From: Hyphochytrium catenoides
Taxonomy: Eukaryota > Sar > Hyphochytriomycetes > Hyphochytriales > Hyphochytriaceae
Direction of reading: 5' to 3'
Assembly (NCBI GenBank): GCA_900088475.1
Contig: FLMG01004535.1
Location: forward strand, 122,703-167,567
DNA length: 44,865 nucleotides
This document shows, piece by piece, positions 5,408 to 36,652 of the stretch. The notes under the pieces were generated by a model. It was not told the origin of the DNA and searched no databases. It saw nothing but the letters and a program-made list of their open reading frames with translations. The position numbers and the translations under genes were made by a program. How positions within the stretch are numbered: the first letter of the stretch is position 1; each line of letters opens with the position of its first letter.

Positions 5408-5939
5408 GGAAAGGAGCTTGCGGATTATGAGCTTGTGTCACCAGGCCTCAGCATCAAGAAGCAGCGAGCGCAAGAACGATGCAAGGCAGGGACACGACTG
5501 AATGAAGTTGAGAGACTCAGCCAGTGGTTGAAGGGAGTCCTCTCTTTTCCCTTCCCTTGGCAGTGAAGCATAATGTGCCCCACAGCATGAGAAGCTTCAC
5601 AATTTTCACTGCCACCAAATGGACTCTTCATCTGCTCTCAAAGGTCCTGCTTGCACACAGAGGTGACCCTAGTGAGCTTCTGACCATATCTGGAGGACCA
5701 AAAGCTTCAACGTGACAGGAGAGAGCGATAAGTGCTCGATGAGAGGGAGACAGAAAGAGTAAGAGAGAGAGAGAAAGAGAGGACAAAGAGGAGGACAGGG
5801 AGAGACGAGGGGGAGAGTGGGGAAAGAGAGACAGAGAGCAGAGATGAGGGTCCGTCTGACCAGCTGTAACCAGAAGTGAAGCCACGCAGTCACGCAGCCA
5901 GGCCGCTTGATGTGAGGAGAGAGGAGACAGAGACAAAGG

Positions 5940-5942
<3 letters not shown>

Positions 5943-5990
<48 letters not shown>

Positions 5991-6006
5991 GGGAGAGAGA
6001 GGGAGA
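5943..6006. repeat. (GA)n microsatellite
   Basis: A GA array that turns into three GGGAGAGA units at its right end. Confidence 0.9.
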
Positions 6007-6589
6007 GGTCACCCCTCTATAACAAGTACGAGTAGAGTACAGTTTGGTAGCCAGAAAAAACACCTGAGGCAAATATATCACAGATTCACCTATTTCTATT
6101 ACCGCATAAGGAGGCATCTATCGCAGCATATTCGGCATAATCCAGCCACTGGCCACTGGGAGCAACCTTCACTTGTGAGTTGAGAATTGAGAATGGACTT
6201 GGGAGGTTTGTTTTGTGAATCAGATTCTTGATTATTTAACCTCTGATTCTTGACCAATAGATTAATAACGTTACCGTCCAGGCAGCAGCTATCATATTCG
6301 AAAGGAAATCGCTCTCAGTCATCAGAGACAACGGAAGAGAAATATCAAGGCCTCGGATCTCATAAATGATCAGCCAAGCACGCTGCCGCTAAAATAGATT
6401 TGCACTGAATATTTATAAAAGATTATTAACTGGCGTGACGCCGATAGAACTCACAGTCCTAGCAATGTGGTCATGCCCTCTAGTGATAGTGCTGCCTAGA
6501 GTCAGTTGCCCCACGAAGGAAGACTCCATAAATGTCCTGTCAGGTGACGCCTCTCGCGTTCCGCCCTAACCCGTCACTTCTTCCTGCTG

Positions 6590-6998: not shown

Positions 6999-9108
6999 TG
7001 GGGATGAGGGGGGTTCCTTCTACTCTTTACGCTGACCACGGCGTCAACGAGGAGATTTCTACCTCCAATAGGCAGGAGAGCGTCGACCACATCACTACTA
7101 CGTTTACACTCCACATCAGAACGATAGCAGAGAGAGGCAATCATCGATCTCTCTGGAGACGGAGAGCAATATCGCAATCTTACAACCGACGAGAGAAGCA
7201 GCACCCAGATGAAAAAAAAGGTCCTTGTTGTGATGGATTGACCTCGTCAAACATCAGACTACCAGAGGATGAAGTCAAGCGTGCGAAAGAATGTGGTTAT
7301 TGGGCACTTTGACTCTCCTAGTATTTGTTACTGGCAGCCGCTCTAGAAGCAATCTTCAAGAGATCTACACTATCGCGTCTCCTGCTGGCGCTCTCTTCTT
7401 GTTGATGGTCATACTTTTGCTTTTGCCCTCAGTTCTTCGAGAGACTTCCTGTCCTTTGGAAGGGGCAGCAGCAGCAGAGAGCGTCCGATTTGTGGAGAGA
7501 GACAAAGAGAGACAGAGAGAGAGAGAAAAGGTGACAGAGCAGAGAGAAAGAGAAGGGGAGAGAGAGGAAAGAGAGAGAGAGGGTTCTGCGCGAGAGAGAG
7601 AGTTGCGAAAGAGAGAGAGGGAAAGAAGTGTACGGAGAGATCGGGGAGAACGAAGGAACAATGCCATGTGCTTCGTGAGAGTGGTAGAACTCTACAGTAC
7701 AAAGAGGAGCAAAGTTCTTTTCTTTCTAATACTAAGACTGGGAGTATCTTTCTCTTATCTTTCTCTCTCCGGTCCTGTTCCCAGACATCAATCAGATGAT
7801 CCTCAGAAGAGGGAGGGGAGAGCGGAGCTCTGATTAACCCCGTCCAAAACAGATTTCATTGAAATATTCAATGTGAGGAAACCTTTCCCTTTGCCATAAG
7901 AACCGTCCTACCCTAACGTCTGCCCTGTACACCCAAAAAACACGCGCAAAACTTAATGGAAACCTTTCCAACCCACCCGTCCTCCCCTACCCACCCGACA
8001 CACTGGTCATCAAAAAAGTTAGCAATCGCGAGGCAGTAGTAATACACAAATGTTAGGCTTATCAACTAAAGTCAGAGGCGTACTACTCTTCCTACAAAAC
8101 TGTCGCCAAATATCGCAGTGGCCGCCACAACACAATTTTCTATTTAAAGTCCGTTCTTCCTTGAGTTGATCGACTGACAAACAGTGGCAAGAGAGATGGG
8201 ATTGTACGAATAAAAAGAAGGGCATCGGACATACAGAGTGTCCAAGGCACTTGGAGAAAGGAGGAATAAGAACAAACGTCAGCTATGGAAAACTAGAAAG
8301 AATGAGAGACAGAGGGGCAGCGAGATACCCACTGCGAGAGAAAGAGTGAGTTTATAGTAGTTGTACTCTTTGTAAATTGTCTGATAGAGAGGGAGAACGA
8401 GAAACAACGAGAGGCAGAGAGGCATAGAAGAGACACCGTAGTTCTCTGAAGGAGGGAAGTGCTCTGGCTTGCTGGTGGCTTATCTTGGGTCCCTCGCCCT
8501 AAGATGCGGCTCACCATAGAACAGGGAAGAGGACGAAAGAGGAAGAAGCCAGAGAGTCACACGCACCTAATCTTCAGTACGAGGTACGGACTACATTGTG
8601 CGAGAGAAAGGAAATCGGCAAGAGACAGAGTGGTGATGGAAGGCAGAGAAAGAGGGATACTTCAGACGAGAAGATAGACCTCAGGAGAGTGAAAGAGACC
8701 TGATGAGGAGCGAGAGAGACGAGCAGTGGCAGGAGAGCAGACAGGCACAAAGGAAGCATCAAGGAGCCAGACCCAGCACGTGCGAGCTGGCCTTCCTCTT
8801 CCCTGCTGCTGGTGCTGCTGCTGCAGTGATTGCCCAGTTGCCCGTTTGCTAGTGGTCCTGGTGCTTCCGTTGAACGGCGTCATTGCCAGCATTGCCGCTT
8901 TCTAAGAGCTTGACATCTTCACATCCGCTCTGTAATAAGAGGTAAGAACATCAGGAAAGCAGCCCTGAGTTTGGCAAGCTTTGTGCCAAGGGAGGCGGCA
9001 GGACAGGCATTGTCTCTCCTCCCTCGCGCGGCGCTTCTCTTCCTCCCGAGTCCCGCTCCAACAGCTGAAGTGCGACGGTTAGTCGGGAGTTAGTTTCTAC
9101 AAGGAGGT
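6999..9108. other. 2.1-kb region with GA-rich low complexity, no confident gene
   Basis: About 7490-7640 is imperfect GA-rich DNA whose translation gives Arg/Glu runs. The frame 7291-7833 (+) starts with two hydrophobic stretches but then consists of repeat translation, so I do not call it. CTG/CAG trinucleotides occur at 8803-8827. The last ~200 bases are the probable promoter and leader of the GH16 gene (AAGGAGGT directly before its ATG). The rest shows nothing I recognise. Confidence 0.45.
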
Positions 9109-11641
9109 ATGCGGCTAGAGCGGGTGGTAGCTTGCAGCGCTCTCGTCGCCTGTCTATGCGCGCGACCGGCGCTGGTCAATGGAGAAGCTTGGGAAGGCGT
9201 TGTACGAGGTGCTGCGGAGTCTGAGACAGCCACTCAGTATTGGATCGATAAGGACACACCTAAGGTACTGCATGCAGGCTTCGAAAGAGACCAACAGCCA
9301 GCGAATGGCATGGCTTTTGCCTTCCTTTTCTCCTTTTTTCCCCTTGGCTTCAGTCCTCATACGCTGTCGCTCTCCCCTCCATACATAGCCCATGTTCCCT
9401 CTGATGGCCCGTTATTTGATGCTCATCCATGGGCTTCTCTGTCTCTCATTAGGATGCTTTCTCAATCAAGTCTCCCTCCGACGGGAAGCAGCTGACCTTA
9501 GTGGCTAGCGACGAGTTCAACTCTGACGGAAGGAGCTTTGCCAATGGCAAGGACAAGATGTGGACGGCGTTGGATGGACCTGACGTGACCAATGACGCTT
9601 TAGAGTACATGTCACCTGACGCTGCGACCACCAAGGACGGCGCTCTGGTAATTGAGCTGACACAAAGGCAAATGGGAGGAAGGAACTACGTCGGCGCTCA
9701 TCTCCAGTCTTGGAACAAGTTCTGGTCAGTCTCCTTTGTCCCTGGACTTCAAGCGTGATAAGGGAAACTCATCAATCTCCCTCTTCGCCTTTCTCCTCCT
9801 CTCTCCGTTGCTCTGTCCTTCATCGTATCCTCGATATGCAGCTATACAGGTGGACTTTTTGTCGTAAGGAACAAGTGGCCAAGTGGCGGCGGAGTATGGC
9901 CTGCAGGTAATCTTACATAGAGTCTACTTGTGTCTCTTCAGCGTGTTTTCTCTTCTTTATATCTATCTGGTGCGTCATCTTGGTAGCTCTCTCTCTCTCT
10001 CTCCCCGTCGACCCTTGCCACGAATAGTCTTCGGCTTCTGACGGCTCTCCCTCTGTAGCTTGGCTCATGGGTAACCTTGGCCGCCCTCAGTACGAGCAGT
10101 CGAACATGGGCGTGTGGCCATGGAGCTACAATAAATGCGACGCCGCAGCCACCAAGCAGAAGATAAGCGCTTGCAACGCCAACCCTGGCCCAGGACTCTA
10201 TCCCAATCAGGGAAGAGGGGCGCCTGAGTTTGACCTTGTCGAAGCATGGAGTGAGTGCCTTTCCCAGATAGCAACGGTCTCAATGGTGATGACTGACTGT
10301 TTGTTCCTCGTTCTATTACACCTGCCCTTTGTAGCCACTGGAGAGGGTTTCAACGTCATCTCTCTCCAGATTGCGCCGAGCATTCCTCAGTACTATCGTC
10401 CTCGAGTATGGAACGCTGACCCCGCGCCGTCAGGACCTGGCAGCTGGTACAGAGGTGTCACCTACGAGAATGGCCAGAACGCCTATTATGGTGAGCTCTT
10501 GCCGCAATCTTCCCTCCCTGCTAGTCTCCAGCAAAGGCCTCCCTAGTCCGAAGCTCTCCCTATAAACACGCCCGTATCTTCGTAGCTCTTTCTTCGTCAG
10601 TGCGCGCAGCCTCATGAGCTTTGCCAGGTCCTTTCTGTTAGACAGAGGCGCATCTTGACTTAGGTGTGGGCGGTGTTACTCGTCTCCTCTAACCTGCTCT
10701 TTTTCTTCCGTTAGGACACGATAAGATGGGATATTCTACTGACGCAGTGGCCAGTAGAGCAGACATAAACCAAGATGCGCGCTTTTCCTGGCAGACATAT
10801 TCCTTTGACTGGAAGCCGGGGCCCGACGGATATGTCAACGGTTACTATGAGAACCAACTGATTGTGGGCGTGCCTGGCTCGGCGCTGGTAAGCGCTTGTG
10901 ATGGAAATCAGCCTGAACTGCTTTTGCCCATGTCTTCTCGGTCTTTTGGAAACGTGATTGAGATAATTTGGGGCTTTGCTTCACTTCCGGGATCTCCTAT
11001 AGATGATCTTTATTCTCGTGCTTGTCGTTCCTATAGCGGCTTTCAAAGGTGTCGCTCTTTCCTCTACCTATATCTTCCTCTCCTCACATCGTCCTCTCTT
11101 CTTCCCTTTTCAGGGCAAGTATTGCGACCCTACGAACCCGTCTATCTGCACGGGAGAACGAGAGGTTCCTAGCGAGCCGATGGCAATTATTCTCAACCTC
11201 GTGCAGGGCAGCGCCAGCTCTTGGGCCCTGGGTCCGGCAAAGGCCACTTATCCCTCCTATTTCTACATAGACTATGTGCGCATCTACCAGGACCCCAAGG
11301 CTATCAACATTGGCTGCGACCCTCCAAAGTATCCTACCAAGGAGTACATTGAGGCTAACAGTGCCATATATGGTCCTGAGGCTATTCCTGAGCCGCCACT
11401 TAACGCTTCGTTTTACTTCTACGCGCACCCACAGCCCACCACCAAGCCCCCCGTCACTACGAAGCCCACCACCAATGCGCCAGACACTACAGAAGCTCCC
11501 CCATCTTCGAAGGCCAAAGATAACGATCAACAGAGCAATCCGACAACGGCGAAGTCTGCCGCATCTGATATTAGCATATCTGCCACGGTGCTGTCTTCGG
11601 CCTGCCTGCTCTCTTCTCTCCTCATGTTCGTTAGACAATAG
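9109..11641 (+). CDS. GH16 beta-glucanase/transglycosidase, KRE6/SKN1 type, secreted (7 exons, 513 aa)
   Basis: Exons are 9109-9264, 9453-9724, 9842-9906, 10059-10250, 10335-10490, 10715-10887 and 11114-11641, with the frame kept across all junctions. The N-terminus (about residues 1-25) is a signal peptide ending ...ALVNG. The body carries KRE6/SKN1 hallmarks: NKFCYTGGLF, GVWPAAWLMGNLGRP, a GRGAPEFDLVEA catalytic block, and EPMAIILNL near the end. In EFDLVE the nucleophile should be Glu221 and the acid/base Glu226, as in the GH16 signature ExDxxE. The C-terminus has a Thr/Pro stalk (TTKPPVTTKPTT) and a final hydrophobic tail (LSSACLLSSLLMFVRQ), suggesting GPI or tail anchoring. The family acts in beta-1,3/1,6-glucan synthesis or remodelling in fungi and stramenopiles. 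Unlike fungal KRE6, it has a cleavable-type signal rather than a long cytosolic N-terminus. A Cys-bearing insertion (KYCDPTNPSICTGE) precedes the EPM block. Confidence 0.88.
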
Positions 11642-11995: not shown

Positions 11996-13963
11996 CTAAA
12001 CTCGTGCACTGCTCAAAGAAGATTGCCTTGCAATCTCCATCTCTCTTCCTTCGATACGTCGCACATCCTCACTCCTGCAGGAGGAGAGGTCACGAGAAGA
12101 GAGAGAAAGCAGATCTGATGAAGCCTTCCTCAAAGAGAGAGAGCTCCTCATGCGACCGAGGCGAAAGCGGAAGTGAAGCTTGAGCTGCGCCATCAGGGCG
12201 AAGTTATTCCTGACAGTGATCGCATTGGACAGCTCCTCCTCTGAGACCTCCACTAGCGGCAGAAGAGGAGGTGGTGTCGCAGGAAAGAGCGAAGGAGAAA
12301 GAGTTGAGACAGGAGACGACAAGCCGATCTGGAGCCAAGAGTGTTGTCTCACATCTCTGAGAGAGAATCTCTGGCTAGGATCACGGTGCAGCATTCCTTG
12401 CAAGAGACTCTGACACAATGGGGAGACAGAGGATGGGATATGCACTTCTCCCTTGGTCATTCTTTCTAGGAGACAGTCCAGGGAAGGCGATTCCTTATCC
12501 TCTTCATAGAGAAAAGGAGGCCTTCCGGTCAACATGACCAGCAACGTGGCCCCTAGCGCCCAGATGTCCGCAAGGCAAAAGTCATAGCCGCCTTTCACCG
12601 CCTCTGGAGGGAGAAAGTGCAGTGTGCCTCCTCCTCCGCCGCCTTCTCGTTCATCACCTTGCCTTCCTCCAGCACTATGTGTCTCTCCTCCCTTTCTTCG
12701 CCCGTCCTCTTCTGCCTCCTCTCTCACCCAGCAGGCAAGAGAGAAGTCAGCAATCTTTGCTGTCCTCCTCTCTTCTTCTGTGAGGAGAATGTTCTCCGGC
12801 TTGAGGTCCTTGTGCGCAATCCCGTTAGCGTGCAGATATTCCAGCCCACAGACAACATCACGAACCACGCCAGCCGCTTCCTCCTCAGTCATCAGCTCCT
12901 CCTTGTGTCCCTCTGCTGCCAGCGTATCTCTTTCTTTTTCTTGTCTCTCTGTGAAAACAGGTGTCTCTCCTGCTCTCTTCTCTCTCCTCTGGTACCGCTG
13001 ACTTTGCGGGCACCACGTCATGAGCTGACCTCCCGGAGCAAACTCCATAATGAGAAAGAGCTTGTCTGACGTCGGGTCGTCAATGACTTCAAAGAGCCTC
13101 ACAATATTTCTATGGGATATCTTCTTTAGGATTGCTATCTCTCTCTCCACCGTGGAGGCGGCCGAGGAGGCGATGACCCGTCCGTCTGTCCTGCTGCGTC
13201 TAAACTCCATCCGACGCTTGAGGAAGGAGCGAGTCATCACCTTGATAGCCACCTCTTCTCCCTCCTCCCCTAGCTGACTCCTGCGTCCTCGTTGAACTAT
13301 CTCGGGTGTCTCCTGTCTTGTCGGATCTGTGGCTTCTTCCGCTCTGTCTGTTTGATGTTCTGCCTCATCGTCCACTCTCATTGCGGCTCTTTCTATTGTC
13401 ACTCCTTCTTTCGTTGAAGCATCTTCTCCTTTACCATCGCCCTCTGTCTCTCTATCTCTATTCTCACCTTCTGTCTCCGCATCTCTCTCCTCTTCTCTTA
13501 CTCTTTCCTCCTGGTGTACGGCACCTTCCTCTTGCGTTGGCGAGGGACAATGCCGCGCGAGAAAGACCTCAGAGAAGGCCCCGCAGCCGATGCGCCGAAT
13601 GATAGAAAAGTCATTGACTTGCTGCGGCTCTCCCTCAAACGAAGAAAGAATCGAGGCTCTTCTCGTCTCTCTCACTGTTGGAGAAGGGCTAGAGGAAGAG
13701 ACACTGGCCTCCCGTCCCTCCGAACTGTATGCCGTTCTCCAGGTGGTCAGCTCTCCTCCAGAGCTCTCTCCCTCGGAGAAGGACGTAGCATCTCTCCTGT
13801 CTTCTAAACTATCTCCTCGGCTTCCGCCGGCCTCCATTAGAGGCGCCACGGAGCCTTCGCCATGCCTCTTCTCTGCTTTCTCTGGCTCATTGTCCGTCTT
13901 CACGGTCTCCTGGGCCGCAGATTCTGGCGCTATCTGCCGGTTCCAGCCCAAGAGAAAGCTCAT
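11996..13963 (-). CDS. Ser/Thr protein kinase, CaMKK/LKB1-like, with DFS instead of DFG (655 aa)
   Basis: One exon. I start at the ATG at 13963. The open frame extends 5' to about 14090 without another ATG, so an upstream exon is possible. The N-terminal ~110 residues are polar and Ser-rich. The kinase domain has a Gly loop GCGAFSEVF (126-134), VAIK with Lys241, EREIAIL (Glu275), HKDLKPEN (384-391), ADFSLA (DFS at 406-408), and LPPE near 451-454, followed by DIWALGATLLVMLTGRPPF. An acidic insert of about 100 residues splits the N-lobe between strands 2 and 3. The xPPE motif and the sequence around the catalytic loop resemble CaMKK/LKB1 kinases, which phosphorylate AMPK/SnRK1-type kinases. That is inference. 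Asn of HxDxxxxN is present. The Mg-loop Gly is Ser and the HRD Arg is Lys, so activity is probable but altered. GT..AG pairs inside the frame look incidental. Confidence 0.8.
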   Translation of the reverse strand: MSFLLGWNRQIAPESAAQETVKTDNEPEKAEKRHGEGSVAPLMEAGGSRGDSLEDRRDATSFSEGESSGGELTTWRTAYSSEGREASVSSSSPSPTVRETRRASILSSFEGEPQQVNDFSIIRRIGCGAFSEVFLARHCPSPTQEEGAVHQEERVREEERDAETEGENRDRETEGDGKGEDASTKEGVTIERAAMRVDDEAEHQTDRAEEATDPTRQETPEIVQRGRRSQLGEEGEEVAIKVMTRSFLKRRMEFRRSRTDGRVIASSAASTVEREIAILKKISHRNIVRLFEVIDDPTSDKLFLIMEFAPGGQLMTWCPQSQRYQRREKRAGETPVFTERQEKERDTLAAEGHKEELMTEEEAAGVVRDVVCGLEYLHANGIAHKDLKPENILLTEEERRTAKIADFSLACWVREEAEEDGRRKGGETHSAGGRQGDEREGGGGGGTLHFLPPEAVKGGYDFCLADIWALGATLLVMLTGRPPFLYEEDKESPSLDCLLERMTKGEVHIPSSVSPLCQSLLQGMLHRDPSQRFSLRDVRQHSWLQIGLSSPVSTLSPSLFPATPPPLLPLVEVSEEELSNAITVRNNFALMAQLKLHFRFRLGRMRSSLSLRKASSDLLSLSSRDLSSCRSEDVRRIEGREMEIARQSSLSSARV

Positions 13964-14275
13964 GGCTTGGTGAGAGCGGGCGTTAGAGGCGAGCAAGAGC
14001 GCCGATGGCGGCTCATCCAAACGGAGGAAGAGCTGGTGCGCGACGTAGAAGATTGATAGATGAGACTTCCGTCTCTCGGCCAGTCACTGAAGAGAAAGAG
14101 CGCTCACAAGGGAGACCGTAGCCACAGCTTTCTTCCGTTCACAGCTGCTCAAGGCGGGAATCTGGTGGAGAAATCAAGAAAAAGAGAAAAACGTGAGCGA
14201 AAGACTTGCATCTTTTAAATTGACATTCTCCCTTTCACCTTCGTGAACGCAGTGCACTGGCTCTTCTTTGCCTCT

Positions 14276-14282
<7 letters not shown>

Positions 14283-14318
<36 letters not shown>
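14283..14318. repeat. (CT)n microsatellite upstream of the kinase gene
   Basis: A 36-nt CT run about 320 bases 5' of the kinase start. It reads as GA in the kinase sense direction. Confidence 0.9.
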
Positions 14319-14320
<2 letters not shown>

Positions 14321-14571
14321 ATCTCCCCTTCCTCTTTCTTCTTGCATTAGCCAGCTCATCAAAAACATCGTCCCTGTCGCACATAAGAGGCAGGAGAGAC
14401 CAATGGCCACGCGGAAGGGTGCGCGGGAAGCCAGAGAAGAAAGAGTTTGATCTTAAGGTTAATATTGTAACAAACAGGGGAGGAAGAAAAAGACAGCAAC
14501 GAGGGACAGAGAGAGGAGCGCCATAAGAGAAGGATGGCGTCACAAACGAATCAAGAGGAGCGAGGAGAGAG

Positions 14572-14586
14572 CGAGAGAGAGAGAGC

Positions 14587-14636
<50 letters not shown>

Positions 14637-14668
14637 GAGAGAGAGCAAGAGAGAGAGAGAGAGAGAAA
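14572..14668. repeat. Long (GA)n microsatellite
   Basis: About 97 nt of GA with a few G, C or A interruptions, the longest such array in the window. It ends in AAAAATG. Confidence 0.9.
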
Positions 14669-15747
14669 AATGTTGCCCATTTGTTCTGTTGGCTCACTTT
14701 CTCCTCTCGACTGGGAAGACGGTTCCGTTGGTTTATTGTTAGGGAGACTGTGTTAGCTCTTTTGTCTATAGATATAGCCTTAGCGGTACGATGCGTGTGT
14801 TTGGAAGGGTGTCTTGCCTTTGGAGAGCTGATAGTTCGAGGGTGTGAGACAGACGCACAGCCTTCGTTAAACACACATCCTTTAGGAAAACTGAAGTGTA
14901 TGGCAAACACACATCACAGTCAATCGCACTCGCCCATTGTGAAGAGGCGTTACAGGTCCGTTACTGCGCTTCCCATCCCTTTCCCTTATTGCCCGCGCCG
15001 CTGATGGCTCTCCCTCGCTCCCATTCTTAACTCTCTCCTTCCTGCCTCGCTCTCCTCTCTTCTCTTTACTGCCTCCGTCGCCCTTCTTCCGTCTCTTCTC
15101 TCACCCGCCGCTCGCTGCTTGACCCTTCTAGCTTCCCAGTGCACCTTCCTTTCCGTCATACCGCAAGATCGAAGGCTGAGGTGGCGGCTGTGCACTGGCT
15201 CGTCCCTCGCCTAGGAGAGCTACAGCAGAAGAAGACAGTAGGCTAAGGCTCCTGTGAGCCGTGCTGCTGCTGCTAACTAAGGAAACTGTGCGAGCACCCT
15301 GTGGTCGCCCCTCTCTCTGCCGTCTGTCAACCGGTCTTTGTCGCCCCACTGTGCTGTTGCGAAAGACGGGAGGCGACGACGCGGCTTCCTGCCCGTCAAG
15401 AGCACGTTCTAACCTTTAGTTCTATGATCTCTGTTACTGTCTCTGCGCCTTGTTCTACGGCCAGCGTTGAGAGGAGCCATTTATCATAGAGTACGCCCAA
15501 AGGACGTTAAGCCGCGGGCAGTTTACGGTTATCAGTGATTATATGGCTAGCAGACCGAGAGCAGCGGAGCTGGAGAAGCATCTCTTACACATTCTCAGGC
15601 ATAATGTATGCCCTGAAGAAGTTCTCTCTTTCTTTCTTTCTTAGTCTCTTCTCTTACATTGCCAGAGGCGCCACACCGCCTTGAAGGTTATCAGATCCAT
15701 GCCCAGAGCAATCTCCCTTCCATCTTCTATAGGTCCCCGGCGTACGC

Positions 15748-19837: not shown

Positions 19838-21361
19838 TTAGAGGTCATCCTTGGTGACTGGAAGCCCTCGCGCCGCATGGAACCGACGGGCGACCTGATG
19901 AAAACAGTTGGGTCAATTGCCAAGCTGCCATATTAGGAAGCATTTGAGGGGATGATCGTAGACAAGTCAGATGCCGCTGGAAATGTGTCAAACAGGGATA
20001 GTGAACGGGCTTGGAAAAAGCAGGGGATCAAGCGTCTCCCTCCTTACCTCCTGCCAGTTAACGACATTCCAGAAGGCCTCAATGTAGTCAGTACGTCGGT
20101 TCTGGTGCTTCAGGTAGTAAGCGTGCTCCCAAACATCCAGGGCTAGTATCGGCACCTGGCCCTCTACCATCGCTGGTGTGTCCTGAAGTAGAAAAGATGG
20201 TAAGGTTGTTCTGAGTAGCGACAGAGCAGAGAAAGGCCCGCTTGGATAAAGGTTGACGTGGAAGAAAGTAGAGCCAAGCCTAGCTGGCGATAGCGAGTGT
20301 GTGAGAGACAGAGAAGCCTGAAGAAGAATGTTGCCTCCTTCTAGCGCGCCACCGAAGGACCTGAATCTTTTTCCTGCTTGCCAGCAGTAGAAGTCGTTCT
20401 TTCCCCCTGTATGCCGGTAGTACCCTCTTTCTAAGTTAACATAAAGCAGCCTCTCGTGCAAAACGACTCTTCTCTCTCTCTTGTTCGTTGGTGTAGCGCC
20501 ACTGTACCTGATTGGGCGTGGATGTGAGGTACAGCTGCTGAGTCTTCTGGTCGTAGGCAAGCCACGCCCATCCGGAGCCAAAGTGCTTGGCGGCAGTCTC
20601 GCCAAACTTCTTCTTAAAGTCCCCAAAGGAGCCGAACGAAGAGGAAAGCGCCTCGGCCAAATCACCAGTGGGCTCGCCTCCTACAAGACAGGACAGTAGT
20701 AGATTAGGCGGCAAGCCGTCGACATAAAGCGCCCAAGATAAGGTTGGTCCGGAGAAGGAGAGCACTACCATGCATAGCCAAAAGAGAATAACTTGATTAA
20801 TAGCAGTCCCTACCAGCTTTGGGACCCATGACCTGCCAAAAGATCTCATGGTTCACATAGCCGCCACCGTTATTACGAACAGCGCCGCGCAGGGTTTCTG
20901 GGATCTGCATTGGAAAGCGTTAAGCCAAGTGGAGAGCGATAGGGCCAAGTAAGGGCCTCTCTTAGCTAACGACTAAGTGTCTGCCTAGGTGAAAAAGGTT
21001 CTCCTCACCTCCTCCAAGTGCTGCAGCAGCTTATCAATACCCATCTTCGCCAAGTATCTGTCCCAGGGAGGAAGCAGCAAGGTCAGAATGATGGTGAGGA
21101 AGGTAGTGGCATGAAGTTAAGAAGAGGATTCACGCACTTGGTCTCAACCTTCGAGCGAAGTGTCGTGAGCGCAGCATTGAGTTTGTCCGTGTAGGCCTTG
21201 TGGTGGCCCAGATGGTGGATGCGCATGGTCTGCTCATCGATGTACGGCTCCAAAGCGTCGTAAGCGTATGGCATTGACGGGACTTGGAGGTTTTGAGCCT
21301 GGCATAGGCTCTGCCCAGCAAGCGCAAGGCCACAGACAATAGCCGAGACCAGCAACTTCAT
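19838..21361 (-). CDS. Manganese superoxide dismutase, secretory/ER form with C-terminal KDDL (6 exons, 242 aa)
   Basis: Minus exons are 21361-21138, 21057-21009, 20904-20814, 20680-20508, 20182-20048 and 19894-19838; all introns are GT-AG and the frame is continuous. It converts superoxide to oxygen and hydrogen peroxide. Metal ligands are His49 ([12 protein letters not shown]), His110 ([13 protein letters not shown]), Asp195 and His199 (LDVWEHAYY). Tyr57 is the conserved gateway residue. NNGGG and Gln179 in PNQD are Mn-type; Fe enzymes have the active-site Gln in the first half. The N-terminus ([20 protein letters not shown]) is a classic signal peptide, not an amphipathic mitochondrial presequence. 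The last four residues are KDDL, close to the ER-retrieval signal KDEL. So the enzyme probably sits in the ER, a plastid reached through the ER, or outside the cell. MnSOD is usually mitochondrial, making this unusual. Confidence 0.9.
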
Positions 21362-21889: not shown

Positions 21890-24963
<3,074 letters not shown>

Positions 24964-26276: not shown

Positions 26277-29200
26277 ATGAATCTTGAGACAAAGTTCGTT
26301 CGCATATTGGGGAAAAATGGAAGCACACATTTTGTGGCCTTTTACACTGGTAAACTCGGCCGTGGGTGAACTGCTCCTGAAGCTTATGTCTCTAAACCTC
26401 CATATATCATGCAACGGTGCAGGAGTATCCTCGCTAGAGATGTCCAACTTATTGAAGGTTTTGGTGGGAGCTGCACCATTCGAGGTCTGACAACGCTTGA
26501 CTTTTACGACGACTGTGCCCACTTTTCCGGCGCGCAACTGCTGAAGAACTACTGCACTTACGCTGACCGACCGGTGTAACTTCCTCATCAGGTGGTTGTG
26601 GGCTTGGAAGATGACTCGAATACTGCCATTCCAATGTCAGTTGCGTGCCAGTTTCCTCAGAGCTTGTCAGCGGCACAGTATAAAGTTTTGGTCGCTGGTA
26701 AGTCGGCCAAGTAGCTGAGCCCCATCGTCGTCTTCGCTATAATCTGCCGTCTACTTTGCCTTAGACACATCCCATCTCTACGCCGAGCGGTATACTAAGA
26801 CGAGCACGCAATTGCCAAGACCGAAGCCTACGAAGGAGACGACTTGCACAGAAAGCAGTATGTCTCTTCTCTGAGCCTAGGCTCACCTTCATCTCTTCTT
26901 ATATGCATGTGAAAACGTAGCTTTCGGGTCGTATGTGTAAAGCACTGAGAGTATTCTTTCTTTCTCCAATATCTGCAGTCAGTCCTGCCAGTCTGGGCAG
27001 CGTGATCAAAGGCCTAGCTGACGAAGGCTACGTAACTGCAGAAGAGAGTGAAGTGCTGCGTCAACTAGCAAGAGAAGGAGCCAAGGTCGTCACAAAGCCC
27101 TTCCAGGTCTACCGGAAGACAGGTGGGAAGAACGCCTATCTCGGTAGCTGCCTTTGGCATCCGCAGTATGCCTTTGCCTACATCCTCTAAGGGTGGCTCT
27201 TCTCTAAGGGTGGCTCTTCTCGCTGGCTCATTATAACGCTTACTCTTCTCAGGACACCTTGGACGTTTAAAGTCGGAGCTTGTGTCTGTTGCTCATCGGA
27301 AGAGTGACAAGAAGGCGCCAACAGGGCAACTGAAGGTTGTACAGCTCAGTCGGTTCGTTGATGTGCTGCGGAAGCAGAATATGGTCTCAGAAAAGGTAGG
27401 TCTTACTTTACGGCTGAGATAGTCCTCAAAAGAATGCTTCGGACACGACACTCTTGCAGAATACGTCGCACCTGGATGACTTCATCTTTCGCTAATCTCG
27501 TATTCCTCTTCATTTGCTTTGACTTGGTCCACAGGAAGAGACCATCCTACTGCAGCTGATAAAGGCGAGGGATGCGGTGATCAACGCCGCATTTGAGCTA
27601 GCGGAAGTGGAGCATGATGTGGAAGCGCTGAGGAACATGATGGTGAGTTGTTTTGTTAAGATGGGATTAGAATACTTACCCCTTCGCTGCGCCCGGCGCT
27701 TTGATGCAATACTTCCAACCGCAGCGTTTTGACTTATCGTTTCTTCGTGGTAGATCCTCCGGGTACGCCTTCTGCTACCAGATGAAGTTCGCGCGCAGCA
27801 AGTTGAGCTTCTAGAAGTTCTTAAGCTTCTCGTACAGCGGAAACTCATCTCAAAAGAAGGTAGCTGACGTGTGTGACGTTTCACTTTCGCCCGCATTGTG
27901 TGTCTTGCATTGACACTCCTCTTGCTCATTTATCACTTGTTGAGTCCCTACGTGGTCTTTCTCGTATATTTTTGACCCCACTCTTCCCGGATCTCCATTA
28001 TCTTGATTATCTTGATTATATCTGTCGCCCAGGTGCACGCTTCTTGATGTACAAGATCATGAACGCTGATAAGTTCGTAATAGCGGCCTGTGAGGCCTAT
28101 GAGATGGACCATGACGTAGAAGAGTTGATGGTAACATGGCACGTGGTGGGCGATAAAACAGCATCGAATGACCATTTCACCTTCTTGTCGATTTGTGCTC
28201 ATTCGCAAGGATACTCTTCTCCGAGTTGCACGACTAGGAATGAGCGGAGAGATCATGAAGCAAGCCCGCGGCCAAGCTCAGCGGTTATCGCAAACCCGCA
28301 CCTCTTCAGCGTCGGCGCAGCTCCGAGGGTCGCAAAAGCTTCTACAGGAGTTTTCCAGAGTAAGTAGTATGTAGGGAGCTAGCTACAGCGTGCCTTGAAA
28401 GGCAAAGCCACGGGCTAGCCACCATCCCCAAGCTGCAGCACTGGCCTTTATGGACATAGGAAAGCAACTTGTAGAATGCTAACACCCATCTTTTGAACTG
28501 CTCTAGTCCGGCTTCATCACTGGCGCGGAGTTTCGCGTTTTGATGTCCCTTTTGCAAAGCGAGAATGAATATCTCATGGCAGCTCTGCAGACATTTGACG
28601 AGGATGGTGATCGAGAGGAACTTGTAGACACTCTCAGGAGGGTGGCACGCCTGCAGGCGCCGGGGAAAGATGAAAAGGTTAGTGGGGGACTCTGATTGGC
28701 TTTGCTTTCCTTCTCGACAAAGAAGTTTTATTATCTGTCGATCCTGCTTCCCTTTAATCTATGGACTTCCCCACTTTTTGATGCCTAAGGTTATACCCCG
28801 GCGGCTGAGAGATCTGCCTTGGTATCGTCCAAGCACTTCCACTCACTTTCGATCCTTGTTCAAGGATCTTTCTGCTTCTTGTTAGCACGATTCTGCTTTG
28901 ACTCGTAAGATCGGTAGAGGTAGCTCTTACATCGCCGGACTGAGTTCCTTTTCTCCCCTCGTCTCTTCTGACCAATACTGCAAAGCCTTCTTTAAGATCT
29001 GGTAGTAAGACATCCAGTCTTTATTCGGCCACCTCAAGCGAGGTTGATCAACTGGAAGACGAAGAGAGCACAGATGAGGAGACGGTGGCATTAGAAGTGG
29101 CAATGGCCTACCCTACCAAGGAGTTGGTGTTACTGCTGCAAAGAGGAGAGCAACAGAAGATCCTGACGCCTGAGTAGGACTAGACGCCCGGCTCTTTTCG

Positions 29201-32121
29201 CTCTCTTTTCCATCTCTCCGTCTCGCCGGACATGTCTTATCACCTCTTTCCAAATTCGCTCTCTGCTATGGCCATGCATCTGTGGTCGATACTTTGCATA
29301 ACCTTGCACGCCCTTATCCAACGCTCTGACGCTCAGTCCACTAAGTCCTTTCTATATATTTACGACAACATCAGGGACTGCTCGCGGCTGCGCCGTTTGA
29401 TAGGTGAGCGAAATCCTGCGCTCTTGGATCCTCTGGAGAGTTTCAAGGAAAGCCAAAACATTAGGGAGCTATTGAGGGCGCTGAAAGCATTAGCTCGCAC
29501 AGGGCTAGAGAGAAAGATGCCTGGAAACGTGAAGCAGTCCAAAGACAAGACTTCAAATGGCAGAGATGTCACTTCCAGGCCAGAGTCTACATTCCACGTC
29601 TTGATGCGGGAGCTGACGGGCACTGCGGTGCTCACTTCGGAGGAAGCATTTATGGGCTCTGCTCTTTTTGAAGAGGGAAATGAGCTAGTCCATGCTATCT
29701 GGCAGGTTTTCCAGGCCAACAGGTATGGTGCACCATAAAGATAGGAAGAGAGGCCTACGTGCTGCCTCTTTGAAATAAGCTGACCGCGGGTCTGCTATCA
29801 TTCTCTCTTCTCTTTCTAGAGACGTGATGGATCTCGTGGATTCTCTAAAGCGCATCTATCGCCATCAAACGGAGGGTGATGGCCAACAACCGACCGGTAG
29901 AGTTTCTCCCTCATGTCATTATCGCTCATCTTCTCTTTTCGTTTGAAGATTCACTGGCCTAACCCTTTGCAGCTTTAGTCTATCGGAATCAGCCCTATCT
30001 GTCGTCTGCCATGCCAGCTTGGTAATAACTGAACTATCCGTCTCTTCGGTCCTTTCCAGTCACAGTGATTCGACGGAAGCTAGAAGAGCTTTCCAACCTT
30101 CACTTCTTGACGAAAGTCCAAAAAGAGAAGCTTTTGAAGCTGTTGGACAAAGAGGATGAAATGTTATTAGCGGCTTTCGAGTTATGGGAGAGGGACCAGA
30201 ATGTCGAAGAGCTATTGGATACCTTGCTTAGGTAAGAGAACTTCAAACAACAGAGATAATCGTGGCCCGGGACTTTCTGAGCGCATGATGCCACCTTAAA
30301 CAGGCTACTACGGCGGGACGATCTCATAGAAGAGCCAGCTGAGAGAAGTTCACAACCAGATCGTGCGCGAGAAGAGCTTTCTGAATTGGCCCTTGCCCTA
30401 GAGCAAGACGGCAAACTGTCTTCAAACGAGCTGCAGGCGCTGCTTTCTTTGGTTGCAATGAGCGAGCCGGCTGTCCTGGCTGCACACGATGTTTATGAGA
30501 GTGACAGGGACATTGAGGATCTGGTGCACTCTCTGCAGATGATTGCTCAAATCTATGCCCGGGAAGGAAACGGGATCAGTCCGGCCGGGCTCGGACGTCA
30601 TACTGAAGCAGGAGAAGTGGAGGACGACGATAAAGGTCTGTCACCTTTTACCGCCGTCAAATAATAGCTAGTCCTTGTAGGGGATGCCTAGTATGCTCTA
30701 CGTTGTTTACTCTTGGCTGTCGAAGGTTGTCATGGTCCTCGTCCTAAACCACCTCATCTCCGTTTCTTCCTTGCAGTGACCACAAAAGGAGACTACTCCA
30801 AGCAATCACTCCAAAAAGTAGTTGCGGTCCTTCAAGAGTCTGGCGCTCTAACGCTGAAGGAATCCAACGTCATCAGCCATCTTATCGAAGAGCTCGACGA
30901 TCGAGTGCTCGCTGCCTTTGATGCTTACAGCTTTGACCAGGATGTGGTAATACGAGCAACAAAATTTGCTGCTCACGAGTGGTCCATTCCCCTGAGTTTG
31001 GCGGTGATGCTGTCTTGGCAATGTTGAATTCGTCGCTGCACTTGTGAACACGTTTTCATAGGGTGCTTTACCTCGCCTCGCCCTCTTGACCCTTATTAAC
31101 CGTAGGATCTTTCCTAACTTCTATCGTTCGCCTTCTTACCTCCCGGCCGCAGGCAAACTTCGTTGACTCTTTGAAGCGAATAGTGTCTTTAGAAGAGCAT
31201 GAGTTCACTGTTGACAGCCAGACGAGAGTTTCAACCCATGATGAGGATGCGAAGAGCCTGGCTGTCAGCAAGGCGCCAGTACACGCTCCATCCGCTCCTG
31301 CCTTTACAGATCTACCTGTGGAACGGCAGTTGCTTCGCGTGGTCTCAGAGATGAAGCTATCGGAGAGGGAAACATCAGCCCTTCGACGAAGGATAGCTCA
31401 AGGAGATTCGTTTGTAAAGGCTGCATTGGAAGTTTATAGATTAGAACAGGACCCGGTAAGTCTTTTGGCGCAGACAGCAACTTTATTTCTCCTATATTTC
31501 AAACCTAGCCAGTTTCGACCATCCCAATAATAGCATTCTTGAGGTCTGGTGGCTCCGATCTGGGACTATTCGCCCCGTAAGGAGATCTTTTGTTTGCCTG
31601 AAGCTAGCAGTTCGTGCTTTTCCTTCCCTGTTGACGACCTCCAGGTATTGAGGTTACCCTCTCACGACCATCTCCAATAGGCTGACCTCAAAGACACACT
31701 TCAGCGAATTGCCAAGAGAGCCGCAGAGGAGGATGCCGCCACGCGCTTGGTGTCTAGTAGAGCCCTAGTGCGTGAAATAGTGACGGAGATGAGAGAGGTA
31801 AATCTGCCGGGCTGTTCAAGGTGTCTTTCTGCTTCCCTCTACCCAAAGGTTCATCTTTGCATTTGCCGTTCGCCCAAGGGCTTGATTTATATGTGGCCAT
31901 GATTCACTTACAAATGATGAGCCTGCCGAACGCACGGTTGACGACTGCTAATGCAATTTCCTTTACAGGCGGACTTTCTTACGCAGAAGGAGTTCGAAAG
32001 GCTGGAACAGATGTTTGAAGATCCAGAAAGCAGTCTTTATGACGTCTTAGAGCGTTACGACGAGACTGGCAGGATAGAGGTTCTGATAGACGGTCTTCGG
32101 GTCTGTGCTTCTGATTCGTAG
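26277..32121 (+). CDS. Large protein of ~11 degenerate tandem helical modules, unknown family (20 exons, 1037 aa)
   Basis: Exons are 26277-26349, 26423-26484, 26592-26697, 26765-26857, 26979-27122, 27253-27395, 27535-27642, 27754-27859, 28033-28130, 28210-28359, 28507-28677, 28986-29173, 29375-29722, 29820-29896, 30060-30231, 30304-30635, 30777-30946, 31153-31455, 31681-31797 and 31969-32121. All are GT-AG and the phase fits at all 19 junctions. Residues 1-110 form a separate, probably beta-rich domain (MNLETKFVRILGKNGSTHFV). From there on a 50-110 residue unit recurs: a helix ending in Gly-x-Leu/Ile-Thr/Ser, a Glu-rich helix, Leu-Ile-x3-Asp/Glu, a helix like VLAAFExYE, then xDxDVEELxDTLxRIA. 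Clear copies are EYLMAALQTFDEDGDREEL, MLLAAFELWERDQNVEELL, VLAAHDVYESDRDIEDLV, VLAAFDAYSFDQDV and FVKAALEVYRLEQDP. There is no signal peptide or TM segment. Acidic Ser-rich linkers occur in exons 12, 16 and 18. The short DxDG-like loops recall degenerate EF-hands, but spacing is too short. It may be a scaffold; function is unknown. Confidence 0.75.
27187..27220. repeat. 17-nt tandem duplication in intron 5 of the repeat-protein gene
   Basis: Two perfect copies (27187-27203, 27204-27220) beginning CTAAGGGTGG, inside the intron 27123-27252. Probably replication slippage. Confidence 0.85.
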
Positions 32122-33525: not shown

Positions 33526-34480
33526 AGAAGTTCAAAAAGAATGCACTTTCCCGCCCGACGCATCAGTCCTGTTAATACCTTCTGCCCTCTGCCCCTCTCA
33601 TTTCTTTGAGGGGCCAGGTCGGAAGGGTGTGACGGTTGGAACCTCTTATCACTATGGTCGAAGGACGGTGCTGACTTTCTCCAATGATGGAGTTATTTAG
33701 GACGGACGAGGAGCCGGCGTGCCCGTCAGCGATAACCTCATTGGCTGCCTGCTAGCTAGCTGTCCTTCTGATGTTCTTAGCCTATGATGTCCCTTATTCA
33801 ACAGATGACCTTAGAAATGCACTCTCTCCAAGAGTGGAACCCGCCAACCAACCATAGCCAAAGGACCTTCTACCTCTGCCTGTACGCATACCCATAGACT
33901 TCATGGTCCAGAAGCAGTAAGAAGAAAGGGTAGGAGTAGGGGGATAGGACTCGTGCGCAACAAGAAAAGGATCCATACTCAGAGCAATTCCACTAGGAAT
34001 TCTTTATATAACTAGATAGAATAGAGGATGGCGAGTAGTGGTGAGTGGTGAGCGTCCCCGATCTGTTAAGAGGCAGATCTGAAGGTTATGTGGCTTACTA
34101 CAGAAGGAAGTGAAGCAGAAGAGCTGCAGCTAAAGGCAGAGAGAGGTACACTCTTTGATGCATCGTCCAATACTGGTAAAGAAATGCGAGGGAGTAGGAG
34201 CACAACAAAGGCAGGCAGAGGGAAATGAGCAGAGAATGGCACTGTCAACGAGGAGCTGTTGATCAAAAGACGCTGCGTAGTCCGCGAGCAATCTTTGACG
34301 TTGCCAAAAAGTTGAAGGCCGGATCGGACCGAGTGCCTTACTGGTGAGCCGAGCGGCCCCACCCTCAGATAACAATTTTCTATCTCTTACAAAGTTTGGC
34401 ATCACAGGCCGCGACACTCCTATCGCTGAGCCTATCCTAGACGACAACTGCTGGGAAGGATTCTATCTTCTGTATCAGAA
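33526..34480. other. Upstream region of the SAC1-like permease gene
   Basis: Short ORFs only. Nothing recognised; it presumably holds the permease promoter. Confidence 0.5.
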
Positions 34481-36652
34481 ATGGCCACTCCTACAGCCTC
34501 TTACCGAGGCCTGGAAGATGACTTTGAACAAAATGGGAAGCAGAAGAGTTATGGTGGAGTAGATGATGCTGCTCAGCGTAATTATTGGAATGGTGGTGCA
34601 GAAGAAGGCCGCCCAAGTAAACATCTATGGTGGAGAACTGCAGTCGAAGGGCTGGAGGTGCAGAGCTTTATCCACAAAGTTTCTGCTCCGAGCTACTGGA
34701 CGGAATTCTTGCGCAGGCGCTGGGCGGGTCTGGCTACTGTTGCTATCCTTAGTCTTGCTCTCCTTTTCTTAGGCATATTTGCGTTTCCTCCGCTGGGATG
34801 GAAAGGGTGGGTTACCTTCGCCATCGTGGTGATCACTCTTGGACTCTTGGTCGAGTCGGCTTTGCCAACGGAAGTTGTGCTCTTGCTCGCTGGTACAGCT
34901 TTCATGGCATTTTTCATCATTCCAGTGAACAAGGCCTTAGCTGGCTTCTCAAATGAGGGCATCGCCACTGTCACCGTCCTCTTTGTCGTGGCAGAAGGGA
35001 TACAGCGTACCAACGTTCTTAACATCGTCTTCAGGTTCTTGCTAGGTCGTCCATCCACTCTGCGCGTTGCACTTCTGCGTATGGTAGTCCCTTGCGCGTT
35101 GATTTCCACATTCTTGAACAACACGCCCATTGTAGCGATGATGATCCCCGTCATCGTAAGATGGGCAGAGTACTCAAACTTTTCTCCGCAGCAGCTGTTG
35201 ATACCAATGTCCTTGGCTGTCTCTTTGGGCGGTACAAACTCTTTGATCGGCACTTCGACAAATCTTGTGCTTCAGGGTCTGGCGGAGACGAACAAGCTGA
35301 AGGACCTCGATGGCAAACCCGTGTCAATCTCCATTTTCGACATCTCCAAAGCAGGGATCATCTACTGCGCGGTGGGTCTGGCTTACCTACTGCTCTGCAC
35401 GCCTTGGCTGCTTCGCGGAGAGAAAAAGAGTGCGGAGAAGGTAGATCTCGAAAAAGCGCTAGCAGTCGCTGGCAAACAGCGATTGAAACTCTACTCTATT
35501 ATCCTTCGAGTTAGAAGGAGCTTCCCTAGCCTTGGGCGGGACTTGAGGGAAGCGGGCTTCTATAATAACGCTCAACATCTTGAGGTTCAGCAGCTAACAC
35601 GAGCTGACACTGACCAACCGCTCATCCAACCGCCGGCAGAGACAAAGGTCCAAAAAGGAGACGTGGTCATCGTCCGCGGTCCTCTGGATGCCATAATAGC
35701 TCTGTACAGACTGGACGGTCTCTCTGTAGCTACTCGAAGCAGCGAAGCCTTGGAAGTGAAGCGACACCGCCGCTCATTGTATGAAGTTGTGATCGGCCCC
35801 TCTTTCCTCGATCAGAACTCGACGTTTGGCGGCTCTGCCTGGGAGGCCTTCTACGATGGAGCTCTTGTCGGTGTGCAGACGGACGCTCGTGAGTTGGACC
35901 CTCTCCTTATTCATCAAGTACCCCTTACGACTGGCCAGACGGTTCTGGTGGAAGGGAAGGACGACTTCATTAGAAATTATCGCCATGTCAACGACTTTTC
36001 TCTAATCTACCAACTGTACGACTCAGAAGCATACAGGACCGATCTCTTCCACATGCTGTTTGCCTCTGGAGTAACGCTAGCTGCAATAATCCTCGCAGCC
36101 CTGGAACTCGTATCTCTTTTTATCACTGCCTCTGTCGCGTCATTCCTGCTTATCGCGACAGGATGCATAACACTCCGGCAGGCGGCCCTCTCTATTGACC
36201 TACCAGTGGTCATAACCGTGGCGTCAACGTTTGCTCTTGCAGCTGCCATAGACGTAACAGGGGATGCTGCAGCACTGGCAGATCAACTGATTGCTCTCTT
36301 TGAGCCCTGGGGAACAATTGGTCTTCTCTTTGGAATCTACTTAAGCACCGCCATCCTGACACAGCTCATCACGAATAATGGTGCAGCGGCGTTGATGTAC
36401 CCCATCGCTCTCTCCACCAAGACCGGAGTGGCCATTAAGGAGAACTTGAACCCCTACGCTGTGATCTTTATACTCATGCTCTCCGCATCAGCTTCCTTCT
36501 CGACACCATTTGGTTATCAGTGCAATATGATGGTCCACCGGCCAGGACAATACACTTTTATGGACTGGGTACGGTATAGCTTAGGGTTACAGATTATCCT
36601 GGCGGTCCTGGCACCATTCCTCTGTGACTGGTTCTGGCCATCTCCAAGATAA
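34481..36652 (+). CDS. SAC1/SLC13-like anion (probably sulfate) permease with two TrkA_C domains (723 aa, intronless)
   Basis: A single exon from an ATG in a good context (cagaaATGG). After an 80-residue polar N-terminus come about five hydrophobic segments (81-260) with ESALPTEVVLLLAG, the hairpin FLNNTPIVAMMIP (NNTP at 213-216) and GGTNSLIGTSTN (250-261). A hydrophilic middle (about 315-510) holds two RCK_C/TrkA_C-like folds, each ending in a KGDVVIVRG or GQTVLVEG strand. The second membrane half (about 520-723) has the matching hairpin ITNNGAAALMYP (632-635 NNGA). This layout is that of the SAC1/SLT group (Chlamydomonas sulfate transporters) and bacterial SLC13-type carriers, usually Na+-coupled. 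The substrate could also be arsenite, citrate or another anion. Position of the paired NN motifs agrees with the inverted-repeat fold. Like the MFS gene at 3.5-5.3 kb it lacks introns, and the possibility of transfer should be kept in mind. Confidence 0.87.
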   Translation: MATPTASYRGLEDDFEQNGKQKSYGGVDDAAQRNYWNGGAEEGRPSKHLWWRTAVEGLEVQSFIHKVSAPSYWTEFLRRRWAGLATVAILSLALLFLGIFAFPPLGWKGWVTFAIVVITLGLLVESALPTEVVLLLAGTAFMAFFIIPVNKALAGFSNEGIATVTVLFVVAEGIQRTNVLNIVFRFLLGRPSTLRVALLRMVVPCALISTFLNNTPIVAMMIPVIVRWAEYSNFSPQQLLIPMSLAVSLGGTNSLIGTSTNLVLQGLAETNKLKDLDGKPVSISIFDISKAGIIYCAVGLAYLLLCTPWLLRGEKKSAEKVDLEKALAVAGKQRLKLYSIILRVRRSFPSLGRDLREAGFYNNAQHLEVQQLTRADTDQPLIQPPAETKVQKGDVVIVRGPLDAIIALYRLDGLSVATRSSEALEVKRHRRSLYEVVIGPSFLDQNSTFGGSAWEAFYDGALVGVQTDARELDPLLIHQVPLTTGQTVLVEGKDDFIRNYRHVNDFSLIYQLYDSEAYRTDLFHMLFASGVTLAAIILAALELVSLFITASVASFLLIATGCITLRQAALSIDLPVVITVASTFALAAAIDVTGDAAALADQLIALFEPWGTIGLLFGIYLSTAILTQLITNNGAAALMYPIALSTKTGVAIKENLNPYAVIFILMLSASASFSTPFGYQCNMMVHRPGQYTFMDWVRYSLGLQIILAVLAPFLCDWFWPSPR

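Follow-up and report, generated by a model that had tools for sequence, protein, structure and literature searches.

A Hyphochytrium catenoides gene for eleven tandem, predicted four-helix modules behind a probable beta-grasp head, and its stramenopile relatives

The window analysed here is a 44,865-nucleotide stretch of Hyphochytrium catenoides DNA (assembly GCA_900088475.1, contig FLMG01004535.1, positions 122,703 to 167,567 of the forward strand). Computational analysis of the gene at 26277-32121 on its + strand gave a model of twenty joined exons encoding an N-terminal domain (the head) shared with other proteins and eleven modules with a predicted four-helix fold, together with relatives in oomycetes and ochrophytes. 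We interpret the protein as a member of an undescribed stramenopile family in which a beta-grasp head precedes eleven diverged tandem four-helix modules (about 50-62 residues, on linkers) that would act as a multivalent intracellular scaffold, and put the probability of this reading at about 0.6. The scaffold function is the part reached by inference only, as the most likely role, and we judge this to be a new domain family within a familiar kind of architecture.

The twenty exons join into a single open frame of 1036 amino acids plus a TAG stop. Every one of the 19 introns is GT-AG and 67-332 bases long (the donor 3' of exon 2 lies at 26485), and 12 of them interrupt the span of the module profile, which is restored by exon joining. 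The exon boundaries were picked by hand so that the junctions restored the module, and were then tested with profiles that excluded members from the window. An initial annotation of this DNA had proposed 20 exons and one 1037-residue frame; the present model agrees with it apart from one residue. The coding segments are:

26277..32121, + strand: whole coding region (splicing, translation, homology)
26277-26349, 26423-26484, 26592-26697, 26765-26857, 26979-27143, + strand: exons 1-5 (splicing and translation, as for all exons below)
27253-27395, 27535-27642, 27754-27859, 28033-28130, 28210-28359, + strand: exons 6-10
28507-28677, 29010-29173, 29375-29722, 29820-29896, 30060-30231, + strand: exons 11-15
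30304-30635, 30777-30946, 31153-31455, 31681-31797, 31969-32121, + strand: exons 16-20

Intron 5 also contains a 17-base short tandem duplication at 27188-27221 (TAAGGGTGGCTCTTCTC twice, seen by eye).

An iterated profile, with the consensus ELVEKGLLSEEEAAVLEQLVEAGDELVLAAFEVYEEDGDVEELVDTLLRIA, found eleven modules in the window protein at independent E-values (i-E) of 1.6e-7 to 7.1e-18. A relatives-only profile, whose 223 members include none from the window protein but were gathered with a window-seeded profile, recovered the same eleven at 11.3-52.1 bits, and the best domain that it found in 500 shuffles of the protein reached 3.6 bits. When this profile was run against the 1784 six-frame open reading frames (ORFs) of the window, it gave 13 matches of at least 10 bits, all on the + strand exons of this gene; the next-best ORFs scored 5.9 bits (antisense, in the span of the gene) and 3.8 bits (beyond the gene), i.e. 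no comparable module was found elsewhere in the window. Over 78 diverse full-length modules (another 16 that had been selected differed in length and were excluded) the conserved positions were L30 (59/78), A41 (69/78), D50 (53/78), L54 (63/78), L58 (67/78) and R60 (53/78). The hallmark described in the initial annotation is visible in this count, and its picture of one tandem-module protein with about eleven helical modules is borne out by the joined frame and the profile. Modules are spaced 71-105 residues apart, with inter-module segments of 10-44 residues:

26277..26697, + strand: head, residues 1-80, exons 1-3 (profile of 12 relatives' N-termini; identity to the relative P0001)
26979..27395, + strand: module 1 (degenerate), residues 124-172, exons 5-6 (with the start of module 2 also in exon 6), 21.9 bits (11.3 bits with the relatives-only profile)
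27253..27859, + strand: module 2, residues 204-247, exons 6-7 (helix 4 runs on into exon 8), 30.6 bits
27754..28359, + strand: module 3, residues 276-325, exons 8-10, 48.2 bits
28210..28677, + strand: module 4, residues 367-415, exons 10-11, 55.1 bits
29010..29722, + strand: module 5, residues 473-520, exons 12-13, 33.8 bits
29375..29896, + strand: module 6, residues 560-608, exons 13-14, 46.1 bits
30060..30635, + strand: module 7, residues 630-680, exons 15-16, 47.9 bits
30359..30571, + strand: module 8, residues 698-768 (profile match 710-760), entirely within exon 16, 55.9 bits
30777..31455, + strand: module 9, residues 808-857, exons 17-18, 49.6 bits
31153..31797, + strand: module 10, residues 910-958, exons 18-19, 50.5 bits
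31681..32121, + strand: module 11 (degenerate), residues 983-1033, exons 19-20, to the stop, 22.9 bits (12.9 bits with the relatives-only profile)

Separate support for exons 1-3 comes from a profile built on 12 relatives' N-terminal sequences, which scores 51.5 bits over residues 4-83. The N-terminus is 27-40% identical to those of six relatives (34% to P0001), and Y23, G25, E30, P59 and P67 are invariant among seven aligned heads, the window protein showing this Y-x-G ... E ... P ... P signature. A distinct N-terminal domain of about 110 residues had been annotated initially; the domain is indeed distinct, with a conserved length nearer 85 residues. Counting the window protein, the head was recognised in 16 of 26 proteins (13 of the 16 entered the head profile; P0003, P0010 and P0016 were left out); it was partial in P0012 (7.3 bits), and none was recognised in nine, among them P0019 and P0022. 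The AlphaFold2 model of the P0001 head consists of strands and one main helix, in the beta-beta-alpha-beta-beta arrangement over about 75-80 residues that marks the ubiquitin-like beta-grasp fold, and aligns with beta-grasp structures over 72-79 residues at 2.4-2.8 A (5ip4, 4ikg, 6idx, 8b69, 1lxd, 3kh0, 8fse). The domains that it resembles in fold are doublecortin, CIDE-N, ELMO RBD, Ras-association domains and the talin head. The predicted model thus indicates that the head probably has a ubiquitin-like (beta-grasp) fold. No Pfam family exceeded its cut-off for the window head or for three other heads. Matches of the head profile to designed toroids in PDB (E 2.2e-11 and 1.7e-9) were set aside as designed repeats, because they were limited to 24 positions of one helix and no single stretch passed alone; its other PDB matches were unrelated proteins.

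We modelled module 8 with AlphaFold2, using as the folding alignment the in-exon pieces of the other ten window modules. The model (predicted local distance difference test, pLDDT, 93.2; predicted template modelling score, pTM, 0.79) has four helices, at 2-16, 22-33, 37-49 and 52-69, with loops of 5, 3 and 2 residues between them, and the D-x-D stretch runs across the short turn into the beginning of helix 4. A full-length AlphaFold2 model of P0001, made with 18 relatives, arranges its 40 module helices as ten sets of four, the same number as its ten profile matches. Its pTM is 0.30, and pLDDT falls below 50 at seven of the nine module junctions and once more behind the head, eight short stretches in all. 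Because the four-helix groups are separated by these low-confidence stretches, the modules look like independent units, beads on a string more than a solenoid, with a mutual arrangement that the model leaves unpredicted. No significant PDB fold match was found for the module, the nearest, the VEL polymerising domain (plant VEL1/VIN3, PDB 7o6v), lying within the noise for helical bundles; EF-hand, ARM/HEAT, SAM and death-fold structures were not among the matches in the short list for the module fold.

The relatives number 25 (22 from one protein search, one more from a search with a 19-row alignment and two from a search with P0001) and carry 5 to 20 modules each at i-E < 0.01. Taxonomic range rests on the seven that have organism names, the remaining 18 not being placed: Globisporangium splendens, Globisporangium ultimum, Pythium insidiosum, Aphanomyces invadans (two entries), Phaeothamnion confervicola and Tribonema minus. 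The taxonomy of four of these species places G. splendens and A. invadans in the oomycetes and P. confervicola and T. minus in the ochrophytes, all stramenopiles. The initial label of lineage-specific is therefore only partly right: with relatives in oomycetes and two ochrophyte algae, the lineage has to be drawn to take in a large part of the stramenopiles at the least. The protein searches scored only the ~8000 candidates with the most shared words and do not settle the range outside stramenopiles; six exact peptide patterns from P0001, which reach close relatives only, found no relative in prokaryote genomes or viral contigs. There was no sign of a second gene copy in the genome, where a 767-residue query (E <= 1) matched only this gene's exons, as did a Phaeothamnion head query (E <= 10; exon 3, E 2.8e-4); distant paralogues would escape both queries. 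RuBisCO large subunit and chlorophyll a/b-binding proteins were also missing from the genome matches, as a non-photosynthetic host would predict, but the SKIP/SNW family, expected in any eukaryote, was likewise missed there and in all controls, so that no weight is placed on these absences.

P0002 (G. splendens FI667_g15541), P0005 (P. insidiosum ATCC90586_004444), P0025 (T. minus JKP88DRAFT_272466), P0001 and P0024 have the head and module as in the window protein, with 9-11 modules each at i-E < 0.01. Named relatives are annotated merely as hypothetical or unnamed, and the linkers of the two algal proteins are, by eye, longer and richer in Gly, Asp and Glu. At the same i-E limit, P0022 (1732 amino acids) has 20 modules, of two types that by eye seem to alternate, and P0019 (1254 amino acids) has 10, neither with a recognisable head. 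The source label of P0022, 'succinate dehydrogenase flavin-adding protein', is unsupported, as no Pfam family was found in it at E <= 0.01. A TPR-containing part precedes the head and modules of P0016 (A. invadans), which may be a fused gene model because P0017, from the same species, begins with the head. Literature searches found nothing under the locus tags of four relatives, nothing relevant on stramenopile-specific novel domains or tandem repeats among the matches listed, and nothing relevant on ubiquitin-like domains with tandem helical repeats in stramenopiles or on uncharacterized oomycete helical repeats.

Within the window protein the modules are 13-35% identical to each other (mean 22%). 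Between proteins, module 10 shares 58% of its residues with module 9 of P0001, 52% with the final module in P. insidiosum and 42% with module 10 of P0024. The array is read as old because module 10 is closer to its P0001 counterpart than any two modules inside the window protein are to each other. Reciprocal best matches are collinear with P0001 (3-3, 4-4, 8-7, 10-9) and with P0024 (3-2, 4-3, 8-8, 10-10); module order is partly kept in P0002 and P0012, is not collinear in P0025, and comes down to a single matching module in P0020. In P0025 the counterpart of module 10 is, by eye, interrupted by an inserted stretch and was missed by the match count. The joint occurrence of head and modules in oomycetes and ochrophytes suggests that the array predates the split of these lineages and was later modified.

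The initial annotation had matched the protein to no Pfam family, and no family passed its cut-off for residues 46-1036, nor for the 17 of 25 relatives scanned apart from TPR profiles in P0016. For 36 single modules the best Pfam E-value was 1.1e-4 (TBD, one module), and among the matches listed (25 of 30) no family matched more than two of the 36 at E <= 1. No NCBIfam entry passed its cut-off for 926 residues, with single-module matches only at E 0.008 or worse, and no PDB sequence matched residues 46-1036 at E <= 10. Several near misses were set aside: 1u61 (E 0.012, the best PDB match of the module profile) and designed bundles; CtsR_C, at 23.4 bits for the window protein against a cut-off of 23.8, 20.7 bits for P0006 and two of 36 modules at E <= 1, for which a literature search on eukaryotes gave nothing relevant; and the death effector domain, at 22.6 bits (P0001) and 17.7 bits (P0024) against a cut-off of 35.9.

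We considered four other explanations. That the gene model is an artefact, i.e. a chance joining of unrelated short ORFs, is extremely improbable. It could draw on the manual setting of the final exon boundaries, on a gene model predicted without transcripts, and on automatic splicing, which with a free end broke off after 167 codons, with a forced end and varied coding bonuses gave 19, 21 or 23 exons, and over its settings gave 10, 19, 21 or 23. However, the relatives-only profile detects modules already in the unspliced ORFs, the head profile (12 relatives) recognises exons 1-3 once joined, and the closest relative, P0001, matches the window protein at E 2.4e-57. A continuous ARM/HEAT- or TPR-like solenoid is unlikely; a helical solenoid was one of two possibilities raised in the initial annotation. 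The all-helical repeats and their 71-105-residue spacing would suit it, as would the two P0001 junctions without a low-confidence stretch (226-235 and 374-376) and weak matches of one module in 36 each to DUF3458_C (described as ARM repeats, E 0.0094) and Importin_rep_5 (E 0.098). Against this, ARM, HEAT and TPR are absent from the eight Pfam families at E <= 10 (residues 46-1036), the unit is a four-helix one that folds alone in prediction, segments of 10-44 residues lie between modules, and the low-confidence stretches at seven of nine P0001 junctions separate the predicted units.

Very unlikely, too, is a degenerate EF-hand array for calcium sensing or buffering. The acidic D-x-D-x-E-E-L stretch of the consensus recalls it, but EF-hand_1 (16.7 bits), EF-hand_6 (14.7) and EF-hand_5 (12.7) fall below curated cut-offs of 25.4, 25 and 25.9 bits, and at E <= 1 only two of 36 modules match EF-hand_5 and one each EF-hand_1 and EF-hand_6. 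An EF-hand calcium loop has 12 residues, for which the predicted inter-helix loops are too short, and the D-x-D stretch sits on a turn and helix start. The EF-hand and ARM/HEAT readings were thus rejected; no strong module match to a known family, of which the initial annotation had named these two, was found. Finally, VEL-like modules might stack head to tail on each other and on other molecules, building filaments or condensates in which the beta-grasp head takes the role of a PB1 or DIX domain; we regard this reading as a long shot. The fold similarity to VEL is that noted above; the VEL domain gave no sequence match to the module profile at E <= 10 (a PDB profile search only, with no wider VEL alignment), and the window protein differs in carrying 11 modules in tandem. 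We rate as just as improbable the reading in which the protein is a covalently pre-strung oligomer of a new four-helix domain competent to polymerise, docks through its beta-grasp head and, having arisen independently of the SAM, DIX/PB1 and VEL polymerisers, organises condensates or filaments in stramenopiles.

In the scaffold reading, the other possibility raised in the initial annotation and the one that we find plausible and prefer, the head would dock onto a partner and each module would present its own surface to client proteins. Partners of the matching beta-grasp folds include small GTPases, tubulin and other beta-grasp domains; for this head, which matches no sequence family over cut-off, the fold does not tell the partner class. 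Such client surfaces would account both for the divergence of modules inside one protein and for the way certain modules stay recognisable by position from one protein to the next. ELMO proteins and talin likewise have a ubiquitin-like head and then many helical units, and ELMO2 and the talin head are among the structure matches of the P0001 head; unlike them, the window protein has no ARM or talin rod profile listed (Pfam, residues 46-1036). With a confident predicted fold common to oomycetes and algae, no Pfam or NCBIfam entry over cut-off and no significant PDB match, the module marks a gap in the eukaryotic domain map, and the head and module signatures would allow further proteins now labelled hypothetical to be recognised.

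Elsewhere in the window, matches to other genes were found:

3523-5253 and 11996-14083, - strand: long uninterrupted frames, MFS transporter and protein kinase
10028-11641, + strand: two ORFs matching SKN1/KRE6 beta-glucan synthesis-associated protein
19988-20852, - strand: two ORFs matching the iron/manganese superoxide dismutase C-terminal domain
22411-24295, - strand: exons of a CDC48-type AAA ATPase (AAA, AAA_lid_3, CDC48_2)
34430-36652, + strand: long uninterrupted frame, CitMHS-type transporter; TrkA_C matches weakly, under cut-off

The long uninterrupted neighbouring frames contrast with the intron-rich module gene. CT/GA-rich low-complexity tracts lie at about 1560-2730, 5630-6010, 7270-7860 and 14220-15000, where the mechanically derived ORFs are Leu-Ser-rich or Arg-Glu-rich.
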